Below, in pieces: positions 6,027 to 36,809 of a stretch of DNA of 64,000 nt. A program made the translations under genes and the position numbers. Position 1 is the stretch's first letter. Each line of letters starts with the position of its first letter. The stretch is from an uncultured Erythrobacter sp. (GTDB lineage Bacteria; Pseudomonadota; Alphaproteobacteria; Sphingomonadales; Sphingomonadaceae): positions 2,220,566 through 2,284,565 of the forward strand of contig CANLPY010000001.1 of the NCBI GenBank assembly GCA_947493165.1, written 5' to 3'. The notes below the pieces were generated by a model, which was given only the letters and a program-made list of their open reading frames with translations, did no database searches and was not told where the DNA came from.

Positions 6027-6072
6027 TTTGTTCTTCCCTTGTTCTCTCAGATAATCTATAAAAACCGCAGAA

Positions 6073-6096
6073 ATCCAAGGGGTTTGGCCCTTGGAT
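6073..6096. repeat. 9-bp inverted repeat ATCCAAGGG behind the tRNA
   Basis: ATCCAAGGG-GTTTGG-CCCTTGGAT is a perfect inverted repeat with a 6-base loop, 47 bases after the tRNA end. It could terminate tRNA transcription (no T-run follows) or be a recombinase or excisionase arm site. The function is inference; the symmetry is seen directly. Confidence 0.6.
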
Positions 6097-6142
6097 CGTT
6101 CCGGATCGTCCCACCTGTTCTCGGCCGTTCCAGACATTTTTG

Positions 6143-6191
6143 CGGGCCTTTTGTGGGCCTTTTGCAAAAGGCCCAAATGAAAAGGCCCACA
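6143..6191. repeat. Four GGGCCTTTT motifs, two direct and two inverted, centred on a 20-bp palindrome
   Basis: A perfect 20-bp palindrome GGGCCTTTTGCAAAAGGCCC lies at 6155-6174. One more GGGCCTTTT copy lies to its left (6144 onward) and one more AAAAGGCCC copy to its right, ending two bases before the integrase ATG. The cluster sits between the tRNA and int and overlaps the int translation start region. Likely roles are integrase arm-type sites, excisionase sites or an int operator. Confidence 0.7.
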
Positions 6192-6192
6192 C

Positions 6193-16136: not shown

Positions 16137-16162
16137 ACCAGCCCTCTGAACAAAATAAAATT

Positions 16163-16189
16163 CTTTACTGTAAAGTGCATTACAATGTA
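16163..16189. promoter_or_regulatory. Candidate MarR operator region
   Basis: CTTTACTGTAAAG (16163-16175) is a perfect odd palindrome, followed by TACAATGTA (16181-16189), a second one. Both lie in the 66-base gap between the marR and hydrolase start codons, where an autorepressor would act on both promoters. Confidence 0.6.
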
Positions 16190-16202
16190 GCAACTGACAG
16201 TT

Positions 16203-17090: not shown

Positions 17091-17500
17091 CCAAGGAGCC
17101 AGCCCTTATCGAGCGCGAACAGCTGGAAGAGATGTTGCGCATCGCGCCCTTCCACCAATGGCTGGGCGTCGAGATCAAGTCGCATTCAGCCGATCAGCTT
17201 CAGCTCCTAATGCCATGGCGCAATGAGATTGTTTCCAACCCCATGTTAGGCGCTGCTCACGGGGGCGTTCTGGCGGCTCTTATCGATCTTACCGGACTTT
17301 ACACACTCCTTGCGATGGGGACGATGGTCAAAGCGACCGCCGATCTAAGGGTCGATTATCATCGTCCTGCCACATCAGGGCCGCTCACGGCGACGGGGCG
17401 CATTGTGAAGATTGGGCGGCAGATATCCGTTGCAGAGACAAACATTACTGGCCCTGAGGGCAAGCTCGTAGCAAGTGGCCGGGGTGCCTATACATGCTGA
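17087..17500 (+). CDS. PaaI-family hotdog thioesterase
   Basis: 137 aa, typical for single hotdog thioesterases. HGGVLAALIDLTGLYTLLA is the helix motif with the general-base region, and LRVDYHRPA is the second family landmark. It cleaves acyl-CoA thioesters, often of aryl or medium-chain acids. Start and stop overlap the neighbouring genes (4 and 7 bases), so it is translated as part of the hydrolase-RND operon. Confidence 0.85.
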   Translation: MTKEPALIEREQLEEMLRIAPFHQWLGVEIKSHSADQLQLLMPWRNEIVSNPMLGAAHGGVLAALIDLTGLYTLLAMGTMVKATADLRVDYHRPATSGPLTATGRIVKIGRQISVAETNITGPEGKLVASGRGAYTC

Positions 17501-18606
17501 GGCGCGGAGCCCTGTCTTGGCTCGCCATTTGCGCGCTCGCTCTGGCAGCGTGTTCGGACAACTCGGAAACTGTCGATGCGACCGAACCGGCGCAATTAGA
17601 ACTACGCCAAGTCGAAACGATCATCGTAAAGCCTGAACTCTTGGCAGAGCCGGTAAAGGCATTCGGCACCATCGCGGCAAAGCAGCGCAGCGCAATTGGT
17701 GCCTTGGCCGAAGGGCCTGTCGAACGGATATTCGTCAAAGTCGGCGACCGGGTAACACGCGGGCAGCCGCTCTTCCGAATTCGTCAGGCTGATTACCAAA
17801 GGCGCGTCGCAGAAGCTCAGGCGGCAGTTGATCTAACCGACGCACAAGCGATTGAGGCAGAGCGCCGATATGAACGCGTGATCGCGCTGGCCCCCAGAGG
17901 TTTCGTTTCAAAAGCGCAAGTCGACGCTGCCGAAACCGAGTTGGCCGTTGCCCGTGCGCAGATGGCCCAAGCCGAGGCCGTTCTTGGGACCGCAAAGCAG
18001 GCGCTCAGTGATACGATCACGCGCGCACCTTATGACGGCGTTGTAACGGCAAGATTGGTCGATGAGGGCGTTTATCTCAACAACCGGTTTTCGACGGGCG
18101 GGCAATCCGCAGCGCTTGAATTGCAGGAGATTGGGACTGTCGCGGCTATCGTAAATGCCCCGCAGGAATATGTGGATTCCTTCCGTCGCAATATGCCCGC
18201 TCGCGTGTTTATCGAAGGGTTCGATGAGCCGTTCGATAGCATCGTTTACATCATTAATGACCGCGTCGATCCGGAAAGCCGAATGGTTGAACTGCGGCTT
18301 CCGATCAGCAACCCGAATTATCGGATTAGCTCGGGGTTGGCCGCACGTGCTTTGATTGAAGTTTCTCCCGAACCGGCGATCATCCTGCCGGGCACCGCCA
18401 TTCAAGGCGACAATGCATCCGCTATTGTATTGGTGGTCGAAGACGGCAAGGCGCAGCGCCGCGAGGTAACCTACGAGAGTATCGATCTTGACAGAGTTCG
18501 CGTCCAGTCGGGGTTGAACGAGGGAGACGAGGTCATACTCAATCCTCCGGCCACATTGCGTGTAGGCGCTCCAGTCAAGCCGCGCCGCACGCCAAGCGAA
18601 ACCTAA
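17494..18606 (+). CDS. RND efflux periplasmic adaptor (membrane fusion protein), lipoprotein
   Basis: 370 aa. A lipoprotein signal (ICALALAACSDN) anchors it to the inner membrane. The lipoyl half-motifs (GALAEGPVERIFVKVGDRVTRGQPLFRI), an alpha-hairpin of about 60 residues and a beta-barrel domain are in the usual MFP order. The second lipoyl half reads ITRAPYDGVVTARLVDEGVYL. It links the RND pump gene 1 base downstream to an outer-membrane channel that is not encoded in the window, so a host TolC-type protein is probably used. Confidence 0.9.
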   Translation: MLRRGALSWLAICALALAACSDNSETVDATEPAQLELRQVETIIVKPELLAEPVKAFGTIAAKQRSAIGALAEGPVERIFVKVGDRVTRGQPLFRIRQADYQRRVAEAQAAVDLTDAQAIEAERRYERVIALAPRGFVSKAQVDAAETELAVARAQMAQAEAVLGTAKQALSDTITRAPYDGVVTARLVDEGVYLNNRFSTGGQSAALELQEIGTVAAIVNAPQEYVDSFRRNMPARVFIEGFDEPFDSIVYIINDRVDPESRMVELRLPISNPNYRISSGLAARALIEVSPEPAIILPGTAIQGDNASAIVLVVEDGKAQRREVTYESIDLDRVRVQSGLNEGDEVILNPPATLRVGAPVKPRRTPSET

Positions 18607-18607
18607 T

Positions 18608-21600
18608 ATGTGGTTAGCCGACGTATCAATCCGGCGACCGGTCTTTGCGACGATGCTGATTGCATCGCTTGTCGTGCTTGGCATTGTCTCTTTTGGCCGT
18701 CTTGGCGTTGATCTCTTCCCTGAGGTCGAGTTTCCCTACGTATCCGTTACCACCACTCTGCCCGGTGCTTCTCCGGGAACAGTCGAGACTGAAGTCACCG
18801 ATATTATTGAGGAGCAGCTCAACACCATATCCGGCCTCAAAAAGATGCGATCCATCAGCGCCGAAGGTGTCAGCATCGTCAATCTGGAGTTCGAGCTTGA
18901 GGAAGACGCAGACCTGAAAGCGCAGGAAGTTCGCGACAAGATATCCCGGCTGGGAGGGGACCTGCCCGCTGATGCTGAGCCACCGGTGATCGAAAAAGTT
19001 GATCCTGATGCAGCACCGATCCTTTCGGTGCTCCTTTCCGGCGACTTGCCGATCCGTGATCTAACCACATTCGCCGATGAAGGGGTCAAAGAGCGTTTGC
19101 AGCGGGTTCCCGGTGTCGGTTCGGTTGAGCTGGTCGGTGGGCGCGAGCGCGAGATGCGCATATGGCTTGATGCATCAGCAATGCGAGCGCGCGGAGTGAC
19201 AGCGGATGATGTGCTGTCCGCGATCCAGCGCGAGAACGCAGAGCTGCCGGGCGGGCGGCTGGTAACCGATGGCCGGACCCGGCAGTTCGGTATTCGCACA
19301 TTGGCCGAGGCGACAAATGCGGCGGAGTTTGCGGCGATCCCGGTAGCCTATCGGCCCAATGGGCAAACGGTGCGCATTGGCGATATCGGTCGAGTGGAAG
19401 ACTCTGTCGAAGACGAAGATAGCTACGCTCAGCTCGACGGTGAACTCGGCGTGGTACTCGAAGTGCGCAAGCAAAGCGGCGAAAACACAGTCGCCGTCGC
19501 CGAACAGATACGCGCAGAAATCGAGAACATTGAAGCCACCGATTCCGAAGGGGTGAACTTTGTCATCGCACGTGACACCTCGCGATTTATCGAACAGGCG
19601 ATTGGCGATGTTCTGTTCGACCTCTTTATCGCGGTGCTGTTGGTTGTGGCAGTGACCTTCCTGTTTCTGCTGAGTTGGCGTGCGACGATCATTGTGCTGC
19701 TCGCCATTCCAACCTCAATCGTTGCCACCTTTGTTGCCTTTGCAGCGTTCGATTTTACCATCAACATGATCACTCTGCTGGCGCTGACGGTCGCGATCGG
19801 CCTGCTGGTCGATGATGCAATTGTCGTGGTCGAGGCAGTGCAAAATGATGTCGATGAAGGCGTTGACGCCACCGAGGCGGCGCACTCGGCAACCAAACGC
19901 GTGGCGTTAGCGGTCTTGGCCGGGACATTTGCGACGTTGGCGGTATTTGTGCCGATCGCCTTTATGGAGGGGATCGTTGGGCGGTTCTTTTTCCAATACG
20001 GGCTTTCAATCGTCTTTTCGGTCAGCGTGTCGATGCTGGTCGCCTTCACGCTGACACCAGCCATGTCGGCCCGGCTGCTGCGCCCCGAACATCCCGAGAG
20101 TGGCTGGCTAGGCAGGATCGAGAATTTCCATGTCGGGATGCGCAAACGCTACGAACGGTTGGTGGGATGGGCGATTGACCGCCGTTATCTGGTACTCGGA
20201 GGCGCGCTCGCCAGCGTGTTTATTGGCGGACTATTTGCATCCCAAGTTCCCAGCACATTCATGTCGACCACTGATCGGTCCGAATTTCTGACAACGGTTA
20301 AACTGCCACTCGGAACGGGCATTTCGGGCGCGAAGGAAGCTGCAAGGCAGGTCGATGAAACCTTACGAGAGCACCCTGAGGTTGACCTCGTATTTGTAAG
20401 CGCAGGCAGCGGCAGCAACCCGAAGGTGCACGAGCTCGATATCTATGTCGGCCTATCGCACAAACGCTCCCGAGATCTATCACAAGATGATCTGATGACA
20501 TTTGCCCGCGATGCGCTTGGCGAAAGTGTGCCAAGCGCACGCGAAATTGCCATCGGCGAGGTTCCTTGGGTATCCGGGGCAGGTGTTGGACAGACCGCCA
20601 TTGAGCTAATCATCACGGGACGGGATTCCGCCGCAATCAACGACTATGCCCAATTGCTCTCAGGCGAGCTTGCTGCTCAATCCAATTTTGTCGATGTGCG
20701 ATCAACTTTCGAAGGTGGGCGTCCAGAATTGCAAATTGTGGTCGACCGCGACCGAGCGGCAGATTTGGGAATTTCAGCTCGCAGCCTAGCTGCTGCGTCT
20801 CGCACCCTTATCGGGGGCAGTGATGCTGGCACATTCAACGATCAAGAGCGCCGATATGATGTGCGGGTCCGCCTTGATGAAAGCGCGCGGCAAAGCCTTT
20901 CCGATGTCGAAACACTGCCATTGCGCACGGGGCAAGGAACGCTTGTCGACCTCGCTTCGGTTGCCACGGTTGAAGTGAACCAGAGCGCCGCAGAAATAGA
21001 ACGGATTGATCGATCTCGCCAGATTTCAGTATTGGCAAACACCGCGCCTGGTGTGCCTTTAAGCGTCGCCGTTTCACAGGTTGAAGATTTGCTAGCCGCG
21101 AACCCGCCCCCCGCTGGATTGGCCACCCAAATGGAGGGCACCGCCCGCCGTTTGGCCGAAACGGGCGAGGCCATCATCTTTGCCTTCGGACTGGCGCTTG
21201 TGGCGCTCTACATTGTGCTGGCGAGCCAGTTTAACAGCTTTGGTCAGCCGATAATCATTATGCTGACCGCGCCGCTATCATTCTCCGGAGCGTACTTTCT
21301 GATGTGGGCCACAGGCGAAGAGATGAGCTTGTTCGCGCAGATTGGGATGATCGCGCTGATGGGTATTGTGATGAAAAACGGTATCCTGTTGGTCGATCTC
21401 GCCAATCAGTATCGCGACCGAGGCGATGAGGCTGGCGCTGCGATGCGCAGTGCCGCCCCAGAGCGTCTACGACCCGTGCTGATGACTGCGCTGGCAGCCG
21501 TCTTTGGAATGCTACCTGTGGCCCTCGCGCAATCCGACGCCGCCGAATGGCGCAACGCAATGGGGTTCATCATCATCGGAGGTTTAACGACCTCGACTTT

Positions 21601-21721
21601 CCTCACATTGCTCGTCGTTCCTGCAGCATATGCGGCCTCGGCGGACTTGAGGGGCGGCGTAAGTAAGCTACGTACAAAACTTGCGAGATTCTCGTTCATC
21701 CGTTCTAATTCTGGCGCATAG
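18608..21721 (+). CDS. RND efflux permease (HAE1-like)
   Basis: 1037 aa, the full RND length, starting MWLADVSIRRPVFATMLIASLVVLG (TM1). The proton-relay aspartates appear in TM4 as GLLVDDAIVVVEAV, and the TM8-12 block (ALVALYIVLASQFNSFGQPIIIMLTAPLSFSG; GIVMKNGILLVDLANQ) is intact. Two large periplasmic loops lie between. It exports hydrophobic or amphipathic compounds by proton antiport. It belongs to the MarR operon and looks like accessory cargo inserted between parB and the second recombinase. Confidence 0.93.
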   Translation: MWLADVSIRRPVFATMLIASLVVLGIVSFGRLGVDLFPEVEFPYVSVTTTLPGASPGTVETEVTDIIEEQLNTISGLKKMRSISAEGVSIVNLEFELEEDADLKAQEVRDKISRLGGDLPADAEPPVIEKVDPDAAPILSVLLSGDLPIRDLTTFADEGVKERLQRVPGVGSVELVGGREREMRIWLDASAMRARGVTADDVLSAIQRENAELPGGRLVTDGRTRQFGIRTLAEATNAAEFAAIPVAYRPNGQTVRIGDIGRVEDSVEDEDSYAQLDGELGVVLEVRKQSGENTVAVAEQIRAEIENIEATDSEGVNFVIARDTSRFIEQAIGDVLFDLFIAVLLVVAVTFLFLLSWRATIIVLLAIPTSIVATFVAFAAFDFTINMITLLALTVAIGLLVDDAIVVVEAVQNDVDEGVDATEAAHSATKRVALAVLAGTFATLAVFVPIAFMEGIVGRFFFQYGLSIVFSVSVSMLVAFTLTPAMSARLLRPEHPESGWLGRIENFHVGMRKRYERLVGWAIDRRYLVLGGALASVFIGGLFASQVPSTFMSTTDRSEFLTTVKLPLGTGISGAKEAARQVDETLREHPEVDLVFVSAGSGSNPKVHELDIYVGLSHKRSRDLSQDDLMTFARDALGESVPSAREIAIGEVPWVSGAGVGQTAIELIITGRDSAAINDYAQLLSGELAAQSNFVDVRSTFEGGRPELQIVVDRDRAADLGISARSLAAASRTLIGGSDAGTFNDQERRYDVRVRLDESARQSLSDVETLPLRTGQGTLVDLASVATVEVNQSAAEIERIDRSRQISVLANTAPGVPLSVAVSQVEDLLAANPPPAGLATQMEGTARRLAETGEAIIFAFGLALVALYIVLASQFNSFGQPIIIMLTAPLSFSGAYFLMWATGEEMSLFAQIGMIALMGIVMKNGILLVDLANQYRDRGDEAGAAMRSAAPERLRPVLMTALAAVFGMLPVALAQSDAAEWRNAMGFIIIGGLTTSTFLTLLVVPAAYAASADLRGGVSKLRTKLARFSFIRSNSGA

Positions 21722-22693: not shown

Positions 22694-23623
22694 ATGATTA
22701 AGTCACGCCGCACAGCTTCGATATCGCCAGCTCAGCGCATCACTGCCGCCATTATTGAAAAGTTTGAAGAGGGAACCAAGCCCTGGGTCAAGCCGTGGCG
22801 CGGCGTGCCGCTTTCTCGCCCGCTGCGCTCCTGCGGGACGCCGTATCGCGGCATGAATACCTTCTGGCTCTGGATGGTTGCTGATGCCTGCGGCTACGCC
22901 TCACCATACTGGATGACATATCGCCAGTGCCAGAAACTCGGTGGTCAGGTCCGCAAAGGCGAGAAATCGACCATCGCGATTTTCTACAAAAGCTACACCA
23001 AGGAAGTCGAAAACTCTGAAGGTGGGCAGGATACGGAGAGCCGGCGCGTGCTGAAAGCCTATTCAGTCTTCAATCCCGACCAGTGCGATGGCCTCCCCGA
23101 ATTCTACCATCCCAAGCCACTGGTTGCCGCGCTTGAGCCCGAAGGCCGCGAAGAGCGGCTCGATGCCTTCTTCGCTGAGATCGACGCAGACTTGCGCCAT
23201 CACGGCGCGCAAGCCTACTACGAGCCACTGCGTGATCGCGTCACCATGCCGCCAGCCGAACTCTTCGAAGCCTATGACCATTACTACGCAACACTTGCGC
23301 ATGAGCTGTCGCACTGGACTGGACATTCTTCGCGACTCGATCGAGGCCTCAAGAACCGCTTCGGCAGTGATGCCTATGCCGTCGAAGAACTTGTCGCCGA
23401 GCTGTCCTCCGCCATTCTTGGTGCCGAACTGGGATTGCCCGTCTCGCATCTCGATCATCATGCTAGCTACATCGCGTCCTGGCTCAAGATTCTTAAACAG
23501 GACGGGCGCGCAATCCTGACTGCGGCCGCAAAGGCCGAGGAGGCAGCCACCTTGCTGCTCGAAATGGGCGGTCACCAATCGAGTGCCAATGAAGCTGATG
23601 TCGAATTTTCTGACGCAGCCTGA
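22694..23623 (+). CDS. ardC: ArdC-type antirestriction protein
   Basis: 309 aa. The N-terminal ssDNA-binding DUF1738-like domain (about 10-135: PWVKPWRGVPLSRPLRSCGTPYRGMNTFWLW; YWMTYRQCQKLGGQVRKGEKS) is followed by a zincin domain with H203ELSH207 (LAHELSHWTGHSSRLDR). ArdC protects the incoming single strand from host restriction after conjugation. It is the first gene of the leading-region-like set (ardC, DUF2493, ssb). A conserved-type leader precedes it. Confidence 0.92.
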   Translation: MIKSRRTASISPAQRITAAIIEKFEEGTKPWVKPWRGVPLSRPLRSCGTPYRGMNTFWLWMVADACGYASPYWMTYRQCQKLGGQVRKGEKSTIAIFYKSYTKEVENSEGGQDTESRRVLKAYSVFNPDQCDGLPEFYHPKPLVAALEPEGREERLDAFFAEIDADLRHHGAQAYYEPLRDRVTMPPAELFEAYDHYYATLAHELSHWTGHSSRLDRGLKNRFGSDAYAVEELVAELSSAILGAELGLPVSHLDHHASYIASWLKILKQDGRAILTAAAKAEEAATLLLEMGGHQSSANEADVEFSDAA

Positions 23624-23989
23624 ATAGGAGATTGAACTAAAGCAACTCCGTCAGCCAGCCCGCACGTACTGGCACTTGCCTTCACACCGAGTCAGTTTGG
23701 CCTTGCCGAGCGCTCCCGAACCGATCCTGGATCACTCCCAGACCACTCTTGCACCACTCCGACACGATCCCGCACAGCCTGTTCGCTGGTCCTCGTGCCC
23801 TGGACCGGTCAGGTCCCGCAGCAACCCGCGCAAGGCTGCGGCCCGTGTGGCCCGCGCCAGCCTTGCCTTGCGGGGTTTCCCGCTGACGCGGTGCGGTGGT
23901 CCCTTGTCCCGGTCCTTTTCGGACACGGCGAACAGGCCCGCGCGGAAATTCCTCCGTCGGCATTCGCCGGTCTCAGGAGGACTAAAGAT
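23624..23989 (+). promoter_or_regulatory. 366-base non-coding, C-rich structured leader of the DUF2493 gene
   Basis: No plausible gene on either strand: the in-frame upstream extension of the next ORF and the antisense ORFs have low-complexity composition. The plus strand is strongly C-rich with many short complementary GC blocks, for example a GACCGGTC palindrome and CTTGTCCCGGTCC/GGACACGG-type stretches. It ends in TCTCAGGAGG. Similar leaders precede ssb and the 73-aa gene. Candidate for a structured regulatory RNA or a single-strand promoter region used during transfer. Confidence 0.4.
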
Positions 23990-24922
23990 ATGTATGACAG
24001 TTTCGCCGCCCAGCTTGCCGGCCTCGATCTATCCGGCTTCTCGATCACGCCTGCCCCTTTCAACGAATGCGACTTCCCTTGCGAGGAAGCCATGTCTCAC
24101 ACGCTTGGAGCAGTCTGGTCAGATCTGTTCGCGCTGTTTGCCGACACCGCGCTCGAGGCCGACGCCGAGGATCTCGCCTGGGGCTTCGTCAATCTCTTTC
24201 ACCGTGCAGCCAGCCGCAAAACAACCCAAGTAGATCGAGCTTCGGATGAAATTCGCGCCCTATTGGCATCCGCAGACGGCTCCGAAGTGCATTCGTCAAA
24301 CCTCGAGGAACAGACCCTGCGTGCCCAGTCGGCTGAAGCCAGCATGCAGGTTTTCGAGCAGATGCGTGAGGTTGCAGCAGGTCTCTATCGCGACGAAACC
24401 GGTTCCTCTTGGAAGCCCGTATCGGGATCGCGTGCGCGCCACTCGAAGAACATGACATCGGCATTGATTGATGCCCGCGATTTTTTGCGCGTACGCAAGG
24501 AACGTCGTCAGGCTGCACATTCACCCGAGGGTACTCCGGTCGTGTTTGCCGGTGGTCGCAACCGCTTTGAAAGCGAGGCTGAAGCCAAGACCTACGCGGG
24601 CAACATCTGGGCTACGCTCGACAAGGTTCGCGAGGTCGTTCCTGACCTGTTTCTCGTACATGGCGGAGACGGCAAAGGAGCTGACAGATTGGCTGCGTCC
24701 TGGGCCGAGCGCCATGAAGTGCAGCAGCTAACATTCGGGCTTGAGCGTCGTCTGGGTGCTCGTGCAGGGTTCAAGCGCAACGAGCAAATGCTCGGTCTTA
24801 GTCCTCGCTACGTGGTGGCATTTCCGGGCAACGGCGTGACCGAACGCCTGGTGATCGAAGCCAAGAAGCAGCGCATCACGGTTGTTGATCGTCGCGGGCC
24901 GTTGGGCACTAGTCCCGCTTGA
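23990..24922 (+). CDS. DUF2493 (YspA/SLOG-like) domain protein
   Basis: The ORF track starts at 23795. ATG 23990 (MYDSFAAQLAGLDLSG, 310 aa) has AGGAGG 9 bases upstream and begins where the composition becomes protein-like. The C-terminal third (about 185-300) is a DUF2493 domain: VVFAGGRNRF, LFLVHGGDGKGADRLAASWA, GFKRNEQML and VVAFPGNG, a Rossmann-like nucleotide-binding fold related to the SLOG superfamily. The acidic N-terminal region is of unknown function. Such proteins are routine on alphaproteobacterial conjugative elements. Their biochemical role is unproven, and nucleotide binding is inferred from the fold. Confidence 0.82.
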   Translation: MYDSFAAQLAGLDLSGFSITPAPFNECDFPCEEAMSHTLGAVWSDLFALFADTALEADAEDLAWGFVNLFHRAASRKTTQVDRASDEIRALLASADGSEVHSSNLEEQTLRAQSAEASMQVFEQMREVAAGLYRDETGSSWKPVSGSRARHSKNMTSALIDARDFLRVRKERRQAAHSPEGTPVVFAGGRNRFESEAEAKTYAGNIWATLDKVREVVPDLFLVHGGDGKGADRLAASWAERHEVQQLTFGLERRLGARAGFKRNEQMLGLSPRYVVAFPGNGVTERLVIEAKKQRITVVDRRGPLGTSPA

Positions 24923-25246
24923 CGGGGAAAGAGCAACTAAACCTCTTGGATGATCAATTCCCAATCGCCGAAGAAGGGCGGCCCCATTCAAGGCCGCCCA
25001 TGAGGCGCAGAACTCATTGCTGCTCCGAGTCCTACGGGTCGCAATGGCAGGGGAGTACCGAACGCAATCAATTCCATTGTAGGGTTATGAAATGCCCGAA
25101 TGGATACGCCTCTGAACAGCTTCATTGCTCATCGCGCGTAACCAGCGCGCCTGTGCAGCAATCTTCCTGGACGGACGCGGTTACTGAAAACTGCGGCGCG
25201 GCACTTATCGTTCCCGCATCCGATTTTCCAAGCTACAAGATCGGCA
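24923..25246. other. Intergenic region with one strong hairpin
   Basis: 324 bases without a convincing gene. A perfect hairpin GGGCGGCC-CCATTCAA-GGCCGCCC at 24976-24999 lies about 55 bases after the DUF2493 stop and may end that transcript, although no T-run follows. The rest shows nothing I can name. Confidence 0.5.
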
Positions 25247-25516
25247 ATGCAACTCGATGACCTTCTTCTTCGCTACTTTGCCTCGACCAATTTGTCTAAC
25301 GTGGCGCCAGACACTTTGGCTGCCGGGATCGAGCATTGCCGGGTCGACCTCGGTCTCGAGCAAGACAGGGACAAGCGCTTTGCACTGTGGTCGTTCTTGC
25401 ACATGTTCGGGTCGGCCCCCGACCTCGACGTGGCGTTCGACAACGAGGAAGACCGGGAGGCTGCGCGCAACTTCATGGATCTCCTGGCGGCATCGGGAGG
25501 CGATGGTGTAGGTTGA
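25247..25516 (+). CDS. Small hypothetical acidic protein
   Basis: 89 aa, start MQLDDLLLRYFASTNL. It is helical and acidic (DKRFALWSFLHMFGSAPDLDVAFDNEEDREAARNFMDLLAAS), with amino-acid use like a real soluble protein and no membrane segment or motif. It lies between the DUF2493 gene and ssb on the same strand, in a region where sphingomonad elements usually carry small conserved genes. I do not recognise a family. Confidence 0.6.
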   Translation: MQLDDLLLRYFASTNLSNVAPDTLAAGIEHCRVDLGLEQDRDKRFALWSFLHMFGSAPDLDVAFDNEEDREAARNFMDLLAASGGDGVG

Positions 25517-25786
25517 TTGAAGAGGGGTCACGCGAGCCTTCAGACCCGCACCCGATACCCATCCGGCTTTCTTCGCGAACAGTCCTGAACCAGGTCAGCT
25601 GAGGAGCCGCAACCCGTTCCTTTCCGACCGTGTTGTCGCGCTTCGCGCGCCTGCCCGCACCACCCGTCATGAACAGGTTCCCCTTAGAGCTTCGCTCCTG
25701 CGGTGCAGTCCTCCCATGCCCTGCTTCTTCTGGATGTTCGCAAGCCGGAGATGGTCTCCGGTTTGAGGAACTGAAGGAATACACCC
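25517..25786 (+). promoter_or_regulatory. Structured leader of ssb
   Basis: 270 bases without a gene. GCCGGAGA-TGG-TCTCCGGT (about 25751-25769) forms a hairpin directly before the GAAGGA ribosome binding site. Upstream lie GC-rich blocks resembling the leaders at 23624 and 26516. The hairpin could control ssb translation. Confidence 0.4.
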
Positions 25787-26185
25787 ATGACCAATATCGC
25801 AATCCTCACCGGCCGCATCGCTCGCGATCCCGATACCCGCGAGACCAAGGGCGGCACCAACGTCACCGGGATCACCGTAGTTACTGATCGCCCCGCGCGA
25901 GACAAGGATGGCAAGACCTACAAGGACGAGAACGGCTACACCGCTAAGGAAAGCGAATTCCACCGTGTGACCTGCTTCAATGGCCTCGCCAAGACCGTCG
26001 GACAGTTCTGCTCCAAGGGCCAGCTGGTCAGCGTCCAGGGCCGCATCCACTACACCCAATGGGAAGACAAGGACGGGGTCACACGCTATGGCACAGAGAT
26101 CCTCGCCGACAAGGTCGACTTCCTCTCAAGGGGCAATGGCTCCGGCGAGAACGACGAGAACAAGGATGCTCCCGAGATCGACTGA
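25787..26185 (+). CDS. ssb: Single-stranded DNA-binding protein
   Basis: 132 aa, one OB-fold: NIAILTGRIARDPDTRETKGGTNVTGITVVTDRP, then FHRVTCFNGLAKTVGQFCSKGQLVSVQGRIHYTQWEDKDGVTRYGTEILADKVDFLS. It is shorter than chromosomal SSB, and its acidic tail (DENKDAPEID) lacks the canonical DDDIPF ending. It coats the transferred strand in the recipient. A terminator follows the stop. Confidence 0.93.
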   Translation: MTNIAILTGRIARDPDTRETKGGTNVTGITVVTDRPARDKDGKTYKDENGYTAKESEFHRVTCFNGLAKTVGQFCSKGQLVSVQGRIHYTQWEDKDGVTRYGTEILADKVDFLSRGNGSGENDENKDAPEID

Positions 26186-27126: not shown

Positions 27127-27539
27127 GTGTTCGCCGGTGGAAGAAGAGAGAGTGGTGAGGAGCGGTGCTGGTGACGCGCTCGGTCCCGCACCACCTGCGG
27201 CGGCGCTCCTGCGGGCGCGGCGTATATGGTCCCGGCCCCGCATGCACTCCTGAGCGCCAACGGGTCGAAGCGGCGCGAGGCTGACGGGAGCGACAAACCC
27301 CGCTCCCTTATCTCGCACGCGCTTCTTTGCCGTTAGCTTATCAGGGGTGCGTCTTGGCTGGGATGCTTGCTTCCGAACTGGCGCTTGCGGTTCGCTTCAG
27401 CGTCCCGGGCTGTTGCTTTCGCTCGATTGGCACGGATGCCAATGTCCGTTCAAAACCCATTCCCGTCGTTTCTGGACTTAGACCTCGCAGTGGGAAAACG
27501 GTAGCACACCGTACGCAGCGGGGCTGGCAAGTAAGATCA
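27127..27539. other. Intergenic region without a recognisable gene
   Basis: The first half is GC-rich with CCTGCGGGCGCGG-type repeats like the other leaders of the element. The second half contains GGCACGGATGCCA. Short ORFs here lack coding character. Base composition turns AT-richer toward the candidate oriT. Confidence 0.4.
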
Positions 27540-27750
27540 TGAAGTTTATCATGAATTTGGCAATGTCCACTTCTGTGCCAGTCGTGTGCCAATGGCTTTA
27601 TCGACTGTGCCAGAGTGTGCTGAATTCACTTAGCACATTGAATTTCTGTCCTAATTTTCCAGTTTCCTACACCCTATTGCGCGTGCCAGAGTGGCACTCG
27701 CTTTTCCGAAGAGTGAACCAGGTTCTTTTTAGCAAAGGGAACTTGGATTC
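27540..27750. other. Candidate origin of transfer (oriT)
   Basis: An AT-rich, repeat-rich 210-base stretch lies directly upstream of the relaxosome/TraD/relaxase genes. Seen: ATCATGAA twice near its start; TGTGCC or GTGCCA motifs at least four times; TGTGCT-N10-AGCACA (27616-27637); GTGCCA-GAG-TGGCAC (27683-27697). On the minus strand the last repeat is followed by GCGCAATAGGGTGTAGG. GGGTGT resembles the F-type nic core GGGTGT/GG cut by MobF relaxases. Location and repeats fit an oriT; the exact nick site is inference. Confidence 0.5.
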
Positions 27751-28080
27751 ATGCAAAGACATCATCGTTTTGTGACCTATGTCACGCCTCTCATTGCCGA
27801 GTGGATTAAAGCTCAGGCCGATGAGCGGCGGGTAAGTTCAAGCATCGTGATTGGCGATTGCATTTTTGATGCCTGGCAGCGTGACACGGAAGCCGATTTG
27901 AGGACGCCAGCGACCGATCCGGTTCGCCAGAACATCTTCATCACCGTAGCTTTGGATGCGCTGCTCACGCACCATTCTGTGCCCAATCTGCGCGAGCAGA
28001 CTGTCGCGGCCTATCAGCTCCGGCTGGAGCGTTTGGGGCTCGTTGCGCCGCGCCCGCAAGGGGGCCACGATGAAGCATAA
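27751..28080 (+). CDS. Ribbon-helix-helix-like relaxosome accessory protein
   Basis: 109 aa. The first 45 residues follow the ribbon-helix-helix plan: a short beta strand HRFVTYVTP, helix LIAEWIKAQADERRV, a turn with SSS, then helix IVIGDCIFDAW. A helical C-terminal region follows. It is immediately downstream of the candidate oriT and overlaps the traD start by 11 bases. An oriT-binding helper or autoregulator comparable to TraY/TrwA is therefore likely. No named family was recognised, so the function is inference from fold pattern and place. Confidence 0.65.
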   Translation: MQRHHRFVTYVTPLIAEWIKAQADERRVSSSIVIGDCIFDAWQRDTEADLRTPATDPVRQNIFITVALDALLTHHSVPNLREQTVAAYQLRLERLGLVAPRPQGGHDEA

Positions 28081-30397
28081 TCTCGTCAACTTCACTCGTG
28101 GAAGCCAGCTGCTTGGGCACTTTGGTTTCATGTTCGCAGCCGGGCTCAAAGGCCCGCTGATCATCACCCTGCTTGTCATTCTAGGACTGATCTATTGGGA
28201 GGTTACAAGCGGCCTCAGTGACCACCAAACCTACCTTGTCTGGATGCATATCTATTCGTCCTTCTTCGCGTTCATGGAGTTCGATCCCGACAAGCTTGTG
28301 AACCTCACCTTGGCTGATGGAAGCATGGTCGCGTTCCCGCTCAGCGTAGTGACAGAATACCCACCCATGAAGGAGGCAATGACCGCATTTGAGGGGGCGG
28401 TTGAGGCTGCGCTTGTCACCTCGGCGTGGGGTCTCGTTCCTGCCTTCATTGCCTTTTGGTGGGTCGCTGAACATTTCGGTTGGCGCTCCAAGCAAAGGAA
28501 GCATGTGCGCGGCGCATCGCTTGCAAGCCTTGCTGAACTGGAAGGCGAAATCGACGATCACAATCGCCATGAACGCGCTCGCGAATATGGCAGCAATTTG
28601 GGATGGAGGTGGCGGCTTGCAGGCAGCAGCGCGTTAGCTTCAGCCGGTCTCTACAGCTCCGCGCACCTTGCAGGCGTGAGCTGGCCCTGGCGTAAAGAGC
28701 AAAGTCACACCATGCTGGTCGGCACGACAGGCACGGGCAAAACGGTCGCCCTTTTCGAGCTCCTTTCCGAAATCAGACAAAGAGGCGAACGTGCGGTCAT
28801 TTTCGACCTGACCGGCGCCTTCATCGAAACCTTCTTCGATCCCGAACGCGATATCATTTTGAACCCATTGGATACACGCTGCCCAAGCTGGAGCGTCTTC
28901 GATGATTGCACATCGCGCGCGGAGTTTCATGCAGCAGCGGAGTCGCTTGTGCCCCATGATGGAGGCGGCTCGGAACAGTTTTGGGTGCTCGCTGCGCGCA
29001 CACTATTTGTTGAAACATGTATCAAGCTGAAAGAAGCAGGGCGCGGGACCAATGCCGCGCTTGCCGATGAATTGATGAATGCAGATCTCTCGGATCTGCA
29101 CCGCCTGGTAGAGGACACAATGGCTGGACCGATCAGCACGCCTGCCGCTGCTCGCATGGCGGAATCGGTCCGCGCCGTCTTCAATGTGAACGCAAAAGCG
29201 ATGCAAATGCTGCCTCAATCAGGGGACGCTTTTTCGGTGCGGCAGTGGGTGACTGGCGAAGGAAAACCGGGCTCCTTTCTGTTCCTATCCGCGCGCTATG
29301 TAGACATGAGCGTGCTCTCACAATTGCTGACGCTGTGGCTTGATACAGCAATCAACACGCTGATGACGGGTCGCCGGACGCGTGACCTGCAACTGTGGTT
29401 TCTGATTGATGAGCTCGGCGCGCTTCACCGCCTGCCGTCGCTCGAAAAAGGTCTGCAGACTGCGCGCAATTTTGGCGGTGCTATCGTGACGGGTGTCCAT
29501 ACCTTCGCGAAGCTCAAGGAGGTCTACGGCGAGAACATGGCAATGACCTTGTCCTCGCTTGCAAGGACCAAGCTTATCCTTGCAACTGCTGATCGCGAGA
29601 CCGCCACATGGTGCTCCGACATTATCGGCCACCGCGAGGTTCGCGAGATGGAAGAAGGGTACAGCTATGGCTACAACAATGCGCGCGATGCGGTCAGTCT
29701 GACGCCGCGTCGGCAGGTGGTTCCGCTGCTTTTGCCTGATGAGTTTATGGGCCTTCCAAGCCTTGAGGGCTTCATCAAGTTCCCTGATGGTTTTCCGGCG
29801 GCGCCTGTCTCTTTGCAACCCCGAGATTGGCCGCGCCGGGCCGAAGGTTTTATCCCGTACGAGGATGCCAAAGGACCAACGTCAAAGGCAAAGGCTGAAA
29901 CTCTCAAGGAAGGCGAGGAGACTTCCGAGGCTACGGCAAATAAGGGCGGAGAGGAAGGAGAAGACGGCGGCGATCCGCGCAAGATGAAGGAAGCCACGGA
30001 TCGCAAGCGTGAGCCAGCGAAGCGTCCCAAAGCGCAGTCTCGCGCGCGTGACAAGAAGGTAAAGACTGACAAGCGAGAACGTTCGGGGTCTCGCTCTACG
30101 ACAACCCTCAAACAAGCTGTTGAAGCCTCGCTCAGAAGCGAAAGAGCAGCCTCTTTGGGCAAGGTACAAGGCGAGCTTCCGCTTAGGGAGCAGCAAGTCG
30201 ATGACCGTGAATCAGACGCTCTGAAAGAGCCTGCGCCTCGCACTGATCGGCCCGATCCTGACGCCGCGCAGCGTGAAGGTGAGCAACGAGCAAAGACGGA
30301 TAAGACGCTTCAAGAAGAGCAGCAGCGTTCGCTCTTGGGCGGCGCGGCACGCGAAGAATATGATCACGATCTCGGCGACTTCGACGCTGAGATGTGA
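28070..30397 (+). CDS. traD: Type IV coupling protein TraD
   Basis: The ORF track begins at 27956. ATG 28070 (MKHNLVNFTRGSQLLGHFGF, 775 aa) has AAGGGGG upstream and starts where the conserved N terminus begins. Two transmembrane regions (about 25-45 and 110-135) precede the motor domain with Walker A GTTGTGKTV (218-226) and a WFLIDELGALHRLPSLEKGLQTARNFGG Walker B block. The C-terminal 170 residues are a highly charged Lys/Glu/Arg tail of low complexity. The protein connects the relaxosome to the F-type T4SS and pumps the DNA strand. It is coupled to the accessory gene upstream; the relaxase follows 50 bases downstream. Confidence 0.93.
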   Translation: MKHNLVNFTRGSQLLGHFGFMFAAGLKGPLIITLLVILGLIYWEVTSGLSDHQTYLVWMHIYSSFFAFMEFDPDKLVNLTLADGSMVAFPLSVVTEYPPMKEAMTAFEGAVEAALVTSAWGLVPAFIAFWWVAEHFGWRSKQRKHVRGASLASLAELEGEIDDHNRHERAREYGSNLGWRWRLAGSSALASAGLYSSAHLAGVSWPWRKEQSHTMLVGTTGTGKTVALFELLSEIRQRGERAVIFDLTGAFIETFFDPERDIILNPLDTRCPSWSVFDDCTSRAEFHAAAESLVPHDGGGSEQFWVLAARTLFVETCIKLKEAGRGTNAALADELMNADLSDLHRLVEDTMAGPISTPAAARMAESVRAVFNVNAKAMQMLPQSGDAFSVRQWVTGEGKPGSFLFLSARYVDMSVLSQLLTLWLDTAINTLMTGRRTRDLQLWFLIDELGALHRLPSLEKGLQTARNFGGAIVTGVHTFAKLKEVYGENMAMTLSSLARTKLILATADRETATWCSDIIGHREVREMEEGYSYGYNNARDAVSLTPRRQVVPLLLPDEFMGLPSLEGFIKFPDGFPAAPVSLQPRDWPRRAEGFIPYEDAKGPTSKAKAETLKEGEETSEATANKGGEEGEDGGDPRKMKEATDRKREPAKRPKAQSRARDKKVKTDKRERSGSRSTTTLKQAVEASLRSERAASLGKVQGELPLREQQVDDRESDALKEPAPRTDRPDPDAAQREGEQRAKTDKTLQEEQQRSLLGGAAREEYDHDLGDFDAEM

Positions 30398-30447: not shown

Positions 30448-33357
30448 ATGCTCTCCGTTGCCAATGTCCGCTCGTCCTCCGCAGCGGCCAACTACTTCGC
30501 ATCCGACAACTATTACGCCAAAGCTGATGCTGATCGCTCGGGTGAATGGCTCGGTGAAGGCGCAAAGCGGCTTGGTCTAGAGGGGAAGGTATACGCCAAA
30601 GCCTTCGACGCTTTGTTGCGCGGTGAGCTCCCCGATGGAACGCAAGTTGGCAACCTTGGGCAGGCCCATAGGCCGGGCACCGACCTTACATTCTCTGTTC
30701 CCAAGAGCTGGTCGCTTCTTGCGCTTGTGGGCAAAGATGAGCGCATCCTCAGCGCTTATCGTGAGGCGGTTGTCGAAGCGCTTCAATGGGCGGAAAAGAA
30801 CGCTTCCGAAACCCGCATCATGGCGCAGGGCAAGGTTCAGACCCAAAAGACAGACAATCTGGCAATTGGGCTTTTTCAGCACGACACCAATCGCAACCAG
30901 GAACCCAATCTCCACTTCCACGCCGTGATTGCCAATGTGACGCAAGGCAAGGATGGCAAATGGAGAACGCTCAAGAACGACAGGCTTTGGCAGCTTAACA
31001 CCACACTCAATTCCATCGCGATGGCGCGCTTTCGCGTCGAAGTTGAAAAGCTCGGCTATGAAACCGGACTAACTCTCAAGCACGGCAATTTCGAAGCGCG
31101 CGGGATTTCGCGCCAGGATGTCATGGCCTTCTCTTCTAGGCGCCAAGAAGTGCTAGAAGCAAGGCAAGGTCCAGCCCTTGAAGCGGGGCGGATCGCTGCG
31201 CTTGATACCCGATCTGCCAAAGCGCCGATCGAGGATCGCGATACGCTTGGACGCATGTGGCAGGAAACCGCGCAGTCCATCGGGCTCGATCTAACTCCCA
31301 CGGTTGAGCGCGCGCGCGTGCGATCCTCCATGCCAGAAAAGCCTCATTCGGGTTTCGCGACACTGGTGGAACGGGGCCGAGCTTTGCTTGCCAAGTTTGC
31401 GAGCCATGTTCGAGGGGCAGCTGAAGATCCATTGGTGCCCGCCTCGGTGCTTAAACAGGGCAAGCAGACGATCGCAGCCGCGCAAGCGGTTGCCTCAGCC
31501 GTACGGCATTTGTCGCAGCGCGAGGCCGCATTTGAACGTGAGGCACTTTACAAGGCAGCGTTGGATTTTGGGCTACCAACGACCATCGGAGCAATCGAAA
31601 CGCGCACTCGCGCGCTCGTCAATTCTGGTCATCTTGTAGCGGGACGCGGCGAGCATAAGGGCTGGCTCGCATCGCGCGAAGCGATTGAAACCGAGCAGCG
31701 CATTATTACCGAGGTTCATGCGGGGAAAGGGCAGGTCACGCCTGGCCTTGGCGCTGAAGAGGCAGAAACCCGCGTGCAGGCCTCAGCCGAGATTGGACAC
31801 GGCTTTAGACTGAATGACGGCCAAATCTCGGCTGCGCGCCTTATCCTCACTTCATCGGATCGAACCGTTGCGGTGCAGGGCGTTGCAGGCGCTGGCAAAA
31901 GCAGCGTGCTGGGGCCGGTTGCCAAAGTGCTCGGCGAAGAGGGACGGCCTGTCATTGGTCTCGCAATCCAGAACACGCTCGTCCAAATGCTGGAACGCGA
32001 TACAGGGATTACATCACAAACGCTTGCCCGCTTTCTGGGGGGCTGGAAGCCTTTGCTGGATGATCCCTCCAATCGCACACTCAGAGCCGAAGCGAAGCAG
32101 GCGCTCGGTGGTAGCGTGCTCATTCTGGACGAGGCTTCCATGGTCGCCAACGGCGACAAAGAAAAGCTCGTGACGCTCGTAAATCTAGCCGGCGTCAATC
32201 GCTTGGTGTTTATGGGCGACCGCCAACAGCTTGGAGCTGTCGATGCCGGCAAGCCCTTTGCGCTCTTGCAGAAGGCTGGGATTGCGCAGGCCCAAATGAA
32301 CACCAATCTACGCGCGCGCAATCCCGTTGTTCGCGAAGCCCAAGCCGCTGCGCAGAAAGGTGATGTTCGAACTGCGCTTGCCAAACTTGAGCCCTATACG
32401 ATCGAAGCCAAAGGCGATGGCGCGATTGTTGCTGCCGAGCAGTGGCTTTCGCTGAAGCCAGAGGACCGAGCGCGCACATCAATCTATGCCTCGGGGCGCA
32501 GGATCCGCTCAGCTGTCAATGAGGCTGTGCAAACAGGTCTTCTTGCTAGCGGGCAGATCGGGCCGGAGAAAGCTCGGTTGGCTGTACTGGAGCGCGTGAA
32601 CACCACTTATGAAGAGCTGCGCCATGTTGCAGCCTATCAGACCGGCCGCATTCTTGAGGTTTCAAAGAGACAAAAGGCGCTTGGTCTTATGCCGGGAAAA
32701 TACCGCATCTTAGGCAGCGATCCGAAACGCAAAACGGTCACTTTGGAGAACGCCCGCGGGAAACAATTCAGCTTCGATCCTTCGCGGATAAGGGCAGACA
32801 AGGCCAATGACACTCTGGCTCTATTCAACGACCGACAGCTCGAAATCCATCGTGGCGACAAAATTCGCTGGACGCGAAATGATCACAAGCGCGGGCTGTT
32901 CAACGCTGACCAGGCAAAGGTCATTGCCATCGATAAGGGCAAGGTCACGGTTGAGACATCAAAGGGTGAGCATGTGACGCTTGGAAAGGACGATCCTATG
33001 CTGAAGCGCATCGATCTCGCCTACGCGCTAAACGCTCACATGGCGCAGGGCTTCACCTCAGATCGCGGGATTGCTGTTATGGACAGTAGAGAGCGCAATC
33101 TATCGAACCAAAAGACGTTTTTGGTGACGGTGACCCGGCTGCGCGATCATCTGACTTTGGTCTTGGACAACACTCAAAAGCTGACTGCAGCGGTTGCTCA
33201 CAACAAGGGGGACAAAGCCTCTGCGCTTGAGGTGACATCGCGTCTGCGTGCTGCTGCGGCCAAAGGCGGCGGGGTTGATCAAATTGATCGAGGCGAGAGG
33301 AGCGCTGGCAATGAGCTAGAGCGTACTAAAAGTAGGACGCTTGACCGGGGAATCTGA
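30448..33357 (+). CDS. traI: MobF-family relaxase/helicase
   Basis: 969 aa. The TrwC-type relaxase domain (about 1-290) has the tyrosines Y16, Y22 and Y23 (NYFASDNYYAKAD) and the metal-binding histidines H145, H156 and H158 (FQHDTNRNQEPNLHFHAV). The SF1 helicase domain has Walker A GVAGAGKSS (478-486), VLILDEASMVAN, GDRQQLGAVDAG and a late AYALNAHMAQGFTSDRG. It nicks oriT, stays bound to the 5' end and unwinds the plasmid strand. It is shorter than F TraI (about 1,750 aa) and close to R388 TrwC. The symbol follows F usage; TraA/TrwC would be equivalent. Confidence 0.95.
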   Translation: MLSVANVRSSSAAANYFASDNYYAKADADRSGEWLGEGAKRLGLEGKVYAKAFDALLRGELPDGTQVGNLGQAHRPGTDLTFSVPKSWSLLALVGKDERILSAYREAVVEALQWAEKNASETRIMAQGKVQTQKTDNLAIGLFQHDTNRNQEPNLHFHAVIANVTQGKDGKWRTLKNDRLWQLNTTLNSIAMARFRVEVEKLGYETGLTLKHGNFEARGISRQDVMAFSSRRQEVLEARQGPALEAGRIAALDTRSAKAPIEDRDTLGRMWQETAQSIGLDLTPTVERARVRSSMPEKPHSGFATLVERGRALLAKFASHVRGAAEDPLVPASVLKQGKQTIAAAQAVASAVRHLSQREAAFEREALYKAALDFGLPTTIGAIETRTRALVNSGHLVAGRGEHKGWLASREAIETEQRIITEVHAGKGQVTPGLGAEEAETRVQASAEIGHGFRLNDGQISAARLILTSSDRTVAVQGVAGAGKSSVLGPVAKVLGEEGRPVIGLAIQNTLVQMLERDTGITSQTLARFLGGWKPLLDDPSNRTLRAEAKQALGGSVLILDEASMVANGDKEKLVTLVNLAGVNRLVFMGDRQQLGAVDAGKPFALLQKAGIAQAQMNTNLRARNPVVREAQAAAQKGDVRTALAKLEPYTIEAKGDGAIVAAEQWLSLKPEDRARTSIYASGRRIRSAVNEAVQTGLLASGQIGPEKARLAVLERVNTTYEELRHVAAYQTGRILEVSKRQKALGLMPGKYRILGSDPKRKTVTLENARGKQFSFDPSRIRADKANDTLALFNDRQLEIHRGDKIRWTRNDHKRGLFNADQAKVIAIDKGKVTVETSKGEHVTLGKDDPMLKRIDLAYALNAHMAQGFTSDRGIAVMDSRERNLSNQKTFLVTVTRLRDHLTLVLDNTQKLTAAVAHNKGDKASALEVTSRLRAAAAKGGGVDQIDRGERSAGNELERTKSRTLDRGI

Positions 33358-34235: not shown

Positions 34236-36662
34236 TTATCCCAAGGCGTCGAGAAGGTCAGCTGTGTCGAAGTTTAGCAGAAACTGCGCATACGATGACT
34301 TGAATAGGTCCGAGACGTAATCGGCCAGCTGAACGTCGCTGCGACTATGCTCATTGCCCTTCGTCAATTCGTAGCTGCGCGATTTGGTCGTCGCGAAGAG
34401 AAAAAGCGTATGGAAATAGACGGCACTGATATACCTGCGCTCAGCCAGCTCACTCGCTTCGGTAGATTTTGCTCCGCCTCTGAAGTCTTTCAAAACTTTG
34501 CTGTCGATATTGACGATGATCTCAGAGAGCTTGTCGTCGTCGAGCACAGGGTAGACCACTTCAGAATAGTCCATCCCGACACCCAAAGCCTCAATTTCGT
34601 CCCACGATTTGACACCATCACCGCCTTCCTTGGAGCAAAGCACAAGCTCTGGGATCCCAAGCGGTGGAGGCGCGTCGTCTTTTTTGCGCGGCGGCTTGCG
34701 GTCCGGGTCTGAGATTTTCACCAAGACCGTTTCTGTGAGAGGCCCTCGGGGCGACGATAGACTTGCCGTCATTTCGACAGCATCACCGACTTGCATTTCT
34801 TTGGAAGCACGTAGCCCGATCTTGATCGTTCCATCTTTTGGGCTGGAACGCGAGATATCGATTTCATCGCCATCACCACCCGGTAGAGGATCTGGATTAT
34901 CTCCTCTCCCTCCTTCGCCTGGCTTCGCCAAGCTGATAGTCAACGAGCCTGGATCATCGCTGCGATCAAAATACTCGTTTTCGACGTCGGTCGCGAAGGC
35001 GATTGTCCGTGTGCCGCCTTTGGGCAGTTTGAAGAGTTTCAAACCGCCCTTTCCATCCTTCCCGCCCTTAACGTTGAAGGCAGAAGGATATCGTTTTGGA
35101 TCGAAGGGTGGGGCCGCGCGCGGCTCGCTGTCCTTTCGCTTTTCATCCTTTTTGGGTTTGGCCTTCGCATCGCCCGGCTTGGCCTCTGGCAGGTCGAAAG
35201 TCTGACGCAAAATCTGCGTGAGAGCATCGTTCATCGGAAGATTGCGCGTCACCTCGCGCAGCATCTTTCCTGTATCCTCGCTATCCAGACTGAGGTTGGC
35301 TTTTCGACTCTTCGCAATATCGCTGAGCTCACTGTCTGCCAGCAATTTGCGCAAATGCGCTCGCAGGGCATCGGAGGTCGCACTATTTTTTAGGCGATCA
35401 CGCGAGGCCATAAATAGCTCGTTGCGCACCCCGAGATGGAGCTGGGTGCAGTCAACTTGGATAAGAATGTAGTCCTTCAGCAGCGGCATCTTCAGGCTGC
35501 GGGTAATGAACTCGGACGTAAAGCTGCCATGCACCTGGCCATTGAGTGCGAACATCACCGACATGTCGTTCTTAAAATACTCGCGACGAATGTAAGCCTT
35601 CGTCTCTTTAACCCCCTTGCCGCGGGAGCGCGGGCTGAAGACATAGACGGTGAGCACGAGCTTACCGAATTCTTTGCTCGTATCCTCCAGCGAGAACTGC
35701 GCTTCGATTGTGCGGTCATCGCCCTCTAGCCGGCGTTTCAAGCCAGCTACGACAGTCACTGGGTTTACGTTATCAGGATAGCGCTCATTGTTGTCGACCG
35801 TGAGGAACGGCAGCGCAGGCTCGAAAAGGTATTCGTTAAGGCTGAGGTTGAGATCGCGTGAGATGATTGAACGCGCGCCGCGCGGTAGCTCGTAGGAGTA
35901 TAGCTTAACGAAGGAGCCCGTCTTGAACATGCGCTCTTCAAGACCAAGATCAAGTTCATCGATTTCAACGCTCGGTATCTCGCCATCAATGACGAGATAC
36001 TCGTACCAAGTGTTCTTGCGGTTGGCTGCGTCGACCAGATGTGGTGGATGCTGGCGTAGCAAGGTAAAGCCGAGAGGCTTCGAACCATCATAGCGCTTGC
36101 TCGCGATGAGCTGATAACGTTTCGTTCCGCAGAAGACGACTGCGCCTGAGCCGCCCATATTGTACTTTCCTTGTACGAAATGAACATCGTTCTTGTTGCC
36201 GCGAAGGAGCGAGAGAAAGGTGGTCGGAAAGTCCTCCGGCGCCTGGCCGACACCGTCGTCATAGATAAGAAGCGAAGTGTCTTTGCGCGGCCCGCTGGCC
36301 ACGATCTGTAAATCGCGGGCCCGCTCGCGCCGAACTTGTCCAATGTCCCAGTTTTTGTGATTGGGAAAATATCGGTCCAGAGCTTCTGCAATGCTTTGAG
36401 GTGCCTCGGACGAGCGTGGATCGATACCGTCTTCGAGAACCTTCTTTTCAAGAATAGCGTCGATTCCGTTGGTTACCTTCTCGACTAACGCTGGCACTGG
36501 GTTGGCTTGCTGGTTTTCGACCACGCCATAGAAGGCCTCGTTGTCACCATAGGGGCGCCAATACTCAGCTTTTTCAGTCAGCAAGTACTTCTTTAGGATC
36601 CTGTCGACATCATCTTCGCACGATGCCGCAAGAAATTCATCAAAAAGCTGTTTCGCCTGCAA
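34236..36662 (-). CDS. GHKL (Hsp90-like) ATPase, defence-island associated
   Basis: 808 aa. The Bergerat ATP fold is N-terminal: N box PALVEKVTNGIDAIL (E61, N65, D68), G1 IYDDGVGQAPED (135-140), and G2 GKYNMGGSGAVVFCG (165-174). A MutL/Hsp90-like transducer region follows (about 220-460). Then comes a Lys/Asp/Pro-rich linker (about 500-545), a beta-rich Gly/Asp segment and a C-terminal helical domain (about 700-808) unknown to me. No HNH, PD-(D/E)XK or PLD nuclease motif is obvious. The gene diverges from the dual GHKL kinase gene and shares its promoter region. I infer that it is part of the same three-gene module. Confidence 0.8.
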   Translation of the reverse strand: MQAKQLFDEFLAASCEDDVDRILKKYLLTEKAEYWRPYGDNEAFYGVVENQQANPVPALVEKVTNGIDAILEKKVLEDGIDPRSSEAPQSIAEALDRYFPNHKNWDIGQVRRERARDLQIVASGPRKDTSLLIYDDGVGQAPEDFPTTFLSLLRGNKNDVHFVQGKYNMGGSGAVVFCGTKRYQLIASKRYDGSKPLGFTLLRQHPPHLVDAANRKNTWYEYLVIDGEIPSVEIDELDLGLEERMFKTGSFVKLYSYELPRGARSIISRDLNLSLNEYLFEPALPFLTVDNNERYPDNVNPVTVVAGLKRRLEGDDRTIEAQFSLEDTSKEFGKLVLTVYVFSPRSRGKGVKETKAYIRREYFKNDMSVMFALNGQVHGSFTSEFITRSLKMPLLKDYILIQVDCTQLHLGVRNELFMASRDRLKNSATSDALRAHLRKLLADSELSDIAKSRKANLSLDSEDTGKMLREVTRNLPMNDALTQILRQTFDLPEAKPGDAKAKPKKDEKRKDSEPRAAPPFDPKRYPSAFNVKGGKDGKGGLKLFKLPKGGTRTIAFATDVENEYFDRSDDPGSLTISLAKPGEGGRGDNPDPLPGGDGDEIDISRSSPKDGTIKIGLRASKEMQVGDAVEMTASLSSPRGPLTETVLVKISDPDRKPPRKKDDAPPPLGIPELVLCSKEGGDGVKSWDEIEALGVGMDYSEVVYPVLDDDKLSEIIVNIDSKVLKDFRGGAKSTEASELAERRYISAVYFHTLFLFATTKSRSYELTKGNEHSRSDVQLADYVSDLFKSSYAQFLLNFDTADLLDALG

Positions 36663-36809
36663 GTCTAAGCCCCCGATTTACGCTAAGTTGTACAGCCATC
36701 GATCAGGTCAGAAGATGGGTCAAGCCCGAAGACGAGCAACGATTGACAGCTCACGATTGCACCGTTCACTACTACTGGCTACAGACGCCAAAAGAATTCG
36801 GGGGTTTTT
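36663..36809. promoter_or_regulatory. Divergent promoter region of the GHKL module
   Basis: 147 bases between two divergent GHKL genes. A TTGACA at 36743-36748 with TCACTA 17 bases later is a weak plus-strand promoter candidate. CGGGGG five bases before the TTG at 36810 serves as ribosome binding site. Confidence 0.35.

Follow-up and report, generated by a model that had tools for sequence, protein, structure and literature searches.

In plasmid R388 (MOBF11), the operon trwA-trwB-trwC, coding for a ribbon-helix-helix (RHH) protein, a coupling protein and a relaxase, lies directly beside the oriT. In MOBF oriTs at large, an inverted repeat 5' of the nick site (nic) is common without being a strict requirement. 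As for the F-type systems, the nic of an F12 plasmid is GTGGGGTGT/GG (PMC7755788; the slash marks the nick here and below), a sequence that was matched in the F plasmid, where IHF covers positions +23 to +60 (PMC12117103). Concerning the host genus, Erythrobacter ICEs that follow tRNA-Leu-CAG and carry their integrase immediately behind this tRNA have already been described (PMC4919336); the terms "oriT" and "relaxase" are absent from the full text of that paper, and no description of an oriT was found in it. Finally, members of the iOriT class are integrase elements that lack a relaxase and possess a copy of their helper's oriT (PMC11389934), and MGIs copy the oriT of SXT (PMC5397120).

The sequence analysed here, hereafter the window, is a stretch of 64,000 nucleotides from an uncultured Erythrobacter sp., in which an oriT had been predicted at positions 27540-27750. 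The best explanation of this region, held with high confidence on sequence grounds, is that it constitutes the oriT of a MOBF/F-type ICE of the Erythrobacteraceae, with a nic at GGGTGT/AGG. The window belongs to a contig of 2.3 Mb, the genome measuring 2.97 Mb, and the site is therefore chromosomal and not plasmid-borne. On the plus strand, a tRNA-Leu(CAG) followed by a tyrosine integrase (5940-7410) marks the left end of the element, and a near-identical flanking repeat is found ca. 90.8 kb away, past the right edge of the window, so that attachment repeats are present at both ends. This layout is that of the Erythrobacter ICEs of PMC4919336, and strain AP23 is among the relatives (L098). A piece of the beginning of the integrase gene follows the right attachment site (ca. 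96763-97120 from the start of the window, in L090) and may have been left there by an earlier element or by one in tandem.

Inside the element, a leading region on the plus strand (22694-26185) comprises genes for ArdC (22694-23623), a YAcAr-domain protein (23795-24922) and an SSB (25787-26185), while F-type mating-pair genes, including those for TraG, TraH, TraN, TrbC, TraU, TraC, a DsbC-like protein and TrbI, occupy positions 49144-63941 of the minus strand. The tRNA-Leu(CAG)/integrase pair, the flanking repeat, the F-type mating apparatus, TraD and the MOBF TraI together identify the host as an ICE, as judged from its gene content: an integrase, a tRNA attachment site with direct repeat, a relaxase and a T4SS are united in one chromosomal element. 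The original prediction had looked to related sphingomonad plasmids; the relatives proved instead to be chromosomal ICEs and IMEs, neither the oriT DNA nor the accessory protein matching any plasmid record in PLSDB. The cargo includes RND efflux genes (within 15651-21721) and, within 34236-47383, Ssp phosphorothioation defence genes (SspA-SspD, 41186-47383) with large neighbours at 34236-41202, one of them with HATPase domains. Past the window (L089/L090), ORFs resembling metal efflux, P-type ATPase and multicopper oxidase genes were observed.

The region directly precedes the relaxosome genes, as had been predicted, and these follow in the order RHH-TraD-TraI on the plus strand. The first (rhh, 27751-28080) encodes a 109-aa relaxosome accessory protein in a TraY/TrwA-like position. 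It has no Pfam match of its own, and no solved structure was matched by sequence. Its assignment to the RHH type is a prediction based on two indications. In an AlphaFold model of the isolated protein (mean pLDDT 63, of low confidence), the helix pattern fits this fold, and a profile comparison gave a collinear but weak match to RHH_1 proteins of plasmids (probability 17%, E 0.0015). The coupling protein TraD/TrwB (28070-30397; PF10412, TIGR02759) starts inside the end of rhh, and the MOBF relaxase-helicase TraI (30448-33357; 969 aa; PF08751, NF041492, TIGR02760) gives an E-value of 3e-78 with PF08751 and 249.7 bits with NF041492, against a cut-off of 100, which links a MOBF (TrwC/TraI) relaxase to the site. 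The order RHH, coupling protein and relaxase next to the oriT is shared with R388; unlike in R388, F-type models give the highest scores for the relaxase and TraD, and the nic sequence here presumably differs from that of R388. With F, the locus shares an F-type TraD and T4SS, but it differs in having its rhh-traD-traI operon beside the oriT and in that no TraM gene was recognised.

Just 5' of the rhh start codon, the leader holds an RNA stem-loop (CCAGGTTCTTT...AAAGGGAACTTGG; 27718-27746, plus strand) of the form CCAGGTTCYTT-loop-AAGGAACTTGG, the Shine-Dalgarno of the accessory gene lying in its 3' arm. Pairing holds for 88.7% of the cells over 30 distinct leaders, against at most 57.5% in slid versions, and the covariation score is 0.286 vs. 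0.233 in shuffles, none of the 500 shuffles being as high. Folding z has a median of -2.76 in ICE/IME leaders (n = 26) and of -2.51 in plasmid RHH leaders from other sphingomonads (n = 10), compared to -0.29 in control genes (n = 61); the corresponding Mann-Whitney p-values (5e-9 and 2e-5, respectively) overstate independence, the ICE leaders being akin. Comparable hairpins precede the RHH genes of plasmids pCAR3, pSHV1, pBAR3 and others. No relevant Rfam match and, in the literature searched, no description of this hairpin were found.

Most likely, the stem-loop is a separate conserved RNA element that would limit translation of the accessory gene. It could also be read as a DNA operator palindrome, given that the inverted repeat adjoins an RHH gene; this is rather unlikely, because the stem is kept through compensatory and G-U changes (of the 180 cells formed by six core pairs in the 30 leaders, 144 are Watson-Crick, 36 are G-U and none is broken), the loop varies in length and pCAR3 has three consecutive G-U pairs. 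Such G-U pairs in a conserved stem favour an RNA over a DNA operator. Concerning the RNA element itself, the start of TraD inside the end of rhh makes translational coupling possible, and we tentatively propose, as an idea somewhat short of even odds, that in the MOBF elements of the Sphingomonadales, ICEs and plasmids alike, a stem-loop burying the Shine-Dalgarno gates rhh-traD(-traI) by such coupling, and would thus be an undescribed RNA switch of conjugation. An antisense control of the hairpin assisted by FinO/ProQ is disfavoured, since no ProQ-family gene was found in the genome and the G-U pairs would become A-C mismatches in the antisense RNA.

Upstream of this leader, all the motifs listed by the original prediction are real, and their chance expectations are near zero. 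GTGCCA/TGGCAC occurs six times within 27428-27697 (27428 on the minus strand, 27575, 27586, 27607 and 27683 on the plus strand, and 27692 on the minus strand), vs. a maximum of two per 270 bp elsewhere in the 64 kb. When the 46 sites of the window were placed randomly, six in 270 bp were reached in none of 5000 trials, and only 3 of 2075 canonical 6-mers attain six copies in any 270 bp. The inverted repeat TGTGCT-N10-AGCACA (27616-27637; one match in the window, 0 expected) is kept in the closest relatives L092 and L095, and not in L120, L124 or L125. The palindrome GTGCCA-GAG-TGGCAC (27683-27697; one match, 0.03 expected), which adjoins the nic, is restricted to the immediate clade of the window and the IME L125. 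As for GGGTGTAGG, it lies on the minus strand at 27674-27666, with two matches in the window for 0.05 expected. The stretch had also been called AT-rich, in line with its G+C content of 45% vs. 57.5% in the window. Its predicted limits were too narrow: the stretch itself is an oriT candidate, but the GTGCCA copy at 27428 and the block GCACACCGTACGCAGCG (27504-27520, plus strand) fall outside. This block forms the distal end of the oriT, its ACGCAGCG core is conserved and it is kept in the IMEs L124 and L125; judged by such blocks, conserved across ICE and IME relatives, the functional region reaches left to 27504, and the oriT is delimited here as 27504-27750.

The position of the nic was sought among ca. 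130 related loci of the Sphingomonadales, in two sets overlapping in genomes, the second collection holding 80 named loci, mostly from Erythrobacteraceae. Fifty-five loci out of 56 in the first set and 78 out of 81 in the second share one arrangement on the minus strand: the anchor [T/G]CG[G/A]AAGG, a gap of 31-34 nt and a GT/ junction continued by AGGAAA or by CAA. In the second set, contig ends truncate two of the loci lacking it, and the remaining one, L124, shows GGGTGT/AGGAAA after a second anchor. The anchor/GT pattern appears in 3.7% of windows of the same size elsewhere upstream. In the window, the anchor is TCGGAAAA (27702-27709, minus strand), at this fixed distance from the nic. The two junction types differ in their surroundings: the ACGCAGCG core stands 140-169 nt from the junction in all 76 oriTs of the TGT/AGG type vs. 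none of the 56 of the GT/CAA type. Nic type follows the relaxase tree, and the conserved nic block has a relaxase-dependent sequence. In this tree, the AGG types form one group (support only 0.53) nested within the CAA types, which makes the resemblance of GGGTGT to F look derived rather than inherited. The F-like core announced by the original prediction therefore equals the F-type 5' side in sequence, but its likeness appears to have arisen within the family, and the 3' side, AGGAAAC, differs from the GGTGC of F. A pattern search did not detect this nic block in plasmids pSHV1, pCAR3, pYT40 and others of sphingomonads, and an exact search for the nic core gave no match in viral contigs. Distant rhh homologues with a GT/CAA block and no recognisable TraD/TraI in the 6 kb downstream were also seen (L076-L079, L083, L087), possibly another group of IMEs.

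From this family-wide conserved block and the comparison with F, the nic is most likely GGGTGT/AGG on the minus strand (27666-27674), between 27669 and 27668, where the original prediction had placed it. An oriT whose nic lies elsewhere in the region or on the other strand is improbable. Such a displacement could be argued from the grounds on which the nic was located, namely conservation and analogy to F, and from the ambiguous register of the GT/CAA types: the distance from the anchor to the IHF-like site, ca. 56 nt, is constant in both types, so that the register of the CAA types is uncertain by ca. 3 nt, that of the window's type being unaffected. Against it, the GGGTGT/AGG block is the only one joining a strict position with dependence on relaxase type, and the minus strand agrees with the orientation of the leading genes. 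To the left of the nic, these are on the plus strand in all relatives having them (ssb 64/64, ardC 35/35, YAcAr 36/36), and the entering minus strand would therefore be their template.

Further into the strand leaving from GGGTGT/AGG, an IHF-like motif is placed at nic+25 in the AGG types or nic+22 in the CAA types, an offset common to most relatives and close to that of F, whose RHH accessory sites likewise lie beyond the IHF site (candidate sites here). The motif of the window, ATTCAATGTGCTA (27631-27643, minus strand), has two mismatches to WATCAANNNNTTR and may bind IHF; at most one mismatch was counted in 7 of 33 representatives vs. 1.2% of shuffles, and the genome carries Bac_DNA_binding (HU/IHF) genes. 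Beyond it, the GTGCCA cluster (27571-27620, plus strand; copies at 27575, 27586 and 27607), in which the TTCTGTGCC and GACTGTG parts are conserved, may bind the accessory protein, whose most promising sites are the GTGCC palindromes. Co-variation of near and far repeats across the family (7.2 vs. 6.6 nt) is too weak to serve as proof of such sites. As for the predicted hairpin-plus-nic layout, it holds for the window, where GTGCCACTCTGGCAC beside the nic folds well (z -4.1), for its immediate relatives and for one IME (L125, z -2.3). It does not extend to the family: the sequence 5' of the nic has a median folding z of +0.38 over 25 diverse representatives, which shows no conserved nic-side hairpin, so that GTGCCACTCTGGCAC should not be taken as a hairpin used by relaxases throughout the family.

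The same blocks were also encountered in elements lacking transfer genes. Five loci (L124, L125, L128-L130) keep the oriT and rhh with no TraD/TraI within ca. 8 kb downstream, and L045-L047 are likewise without TraD/TraI. In L124, L125, L128 and L129, the oriT/rhh pair is adjoined by a convergent tyrosine integrase beside tRNA-Ser; by their gene layout, these four are iOriT-type IMEs, with an integrase and an oriT but no relaxase. The genome of L125 also holds an ICE of the window's type (L095), and an internal stop codon close to the start interrupts the L125 rhh (L125:5821-6150). Together with L130 and L045-L047, these four are candidate IMEs mobilised by the ICE. They resemble the iOriT IMEs and MGIs mobilised by SXT/R391 ICEs in carrying a copy of the helper's oriT and no relaxase, some of the latter elements also having a mobI-like accessory gene (PMC11389934, PMC5397120), but the helper here would be an Erythrobacteraceae MOBF ICE, and the copied pair is oriT and rhh beside tRNA-Ser. 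That exactly these blocks are retained in IMEs without a relaxase is strong indirect evidence of oriT function.

Taken with the conserved block, the RHH-TraD-TraI order, the polarity of the leading region and the IHF-like site at the F position, these IMEs support the original proposal of an oriT belonging to a MOBF system, and the flagged stretch can be regarded as a real oriT with high probability, its exact nic and protein binding being inferred. That the region is only an autoregulated promoter/operator of the rhh-traD-traI operon, with the GTGCCA repeats as operators and no nic, is very improbable: RHH proteins often repress their own promoters and a promoter-like match lies at 27524-27552, but the block is strand-specific, has a fixed spacing, follows the relaxase phylogeny, is kept in IMEs without a relaxase and has the leading region polarised around it. 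An operator role besides that of oriT is compatible with these data, and likely.

As an oriT, the region would function as follows. The ICE would first excise; the RHH accessory protein would bind the GTGCC repeats, IHF would bend the DNA at nic+25, and TraI, encoded 2.8 kb downstream, would nick the minus strand at GGGTGT/AGG (27669/27668, a position suggested by conservation and by F). The strand beginning with AGGAAAC would leave first, toward lower coordinates, with the ssb/ardC leading region as template strand, and the rhh-traD-traI genes would be transferred last.

The oriT proposed here is new for this ICE family, although the kind of site is already known; the leader hairpin and the IMEs are more surprising by-products than the oriT itself. 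A nic open to testing and an oriT with defined limits are thereby available for an ICE family that is widespread: among the 301 genomes searched in the bacterial family, 52 carry relatives of the accessory protein. The motif can also reveal the hidden relaxase-less hitchhikers of these ICEs. With its change of nic type, this one relaxase family supplies natural pairs in which the relaxase residues that recognise the nic can be sought, and the leader hairpin points to an RNA-level control of conjugation in the Sphingomonadales.
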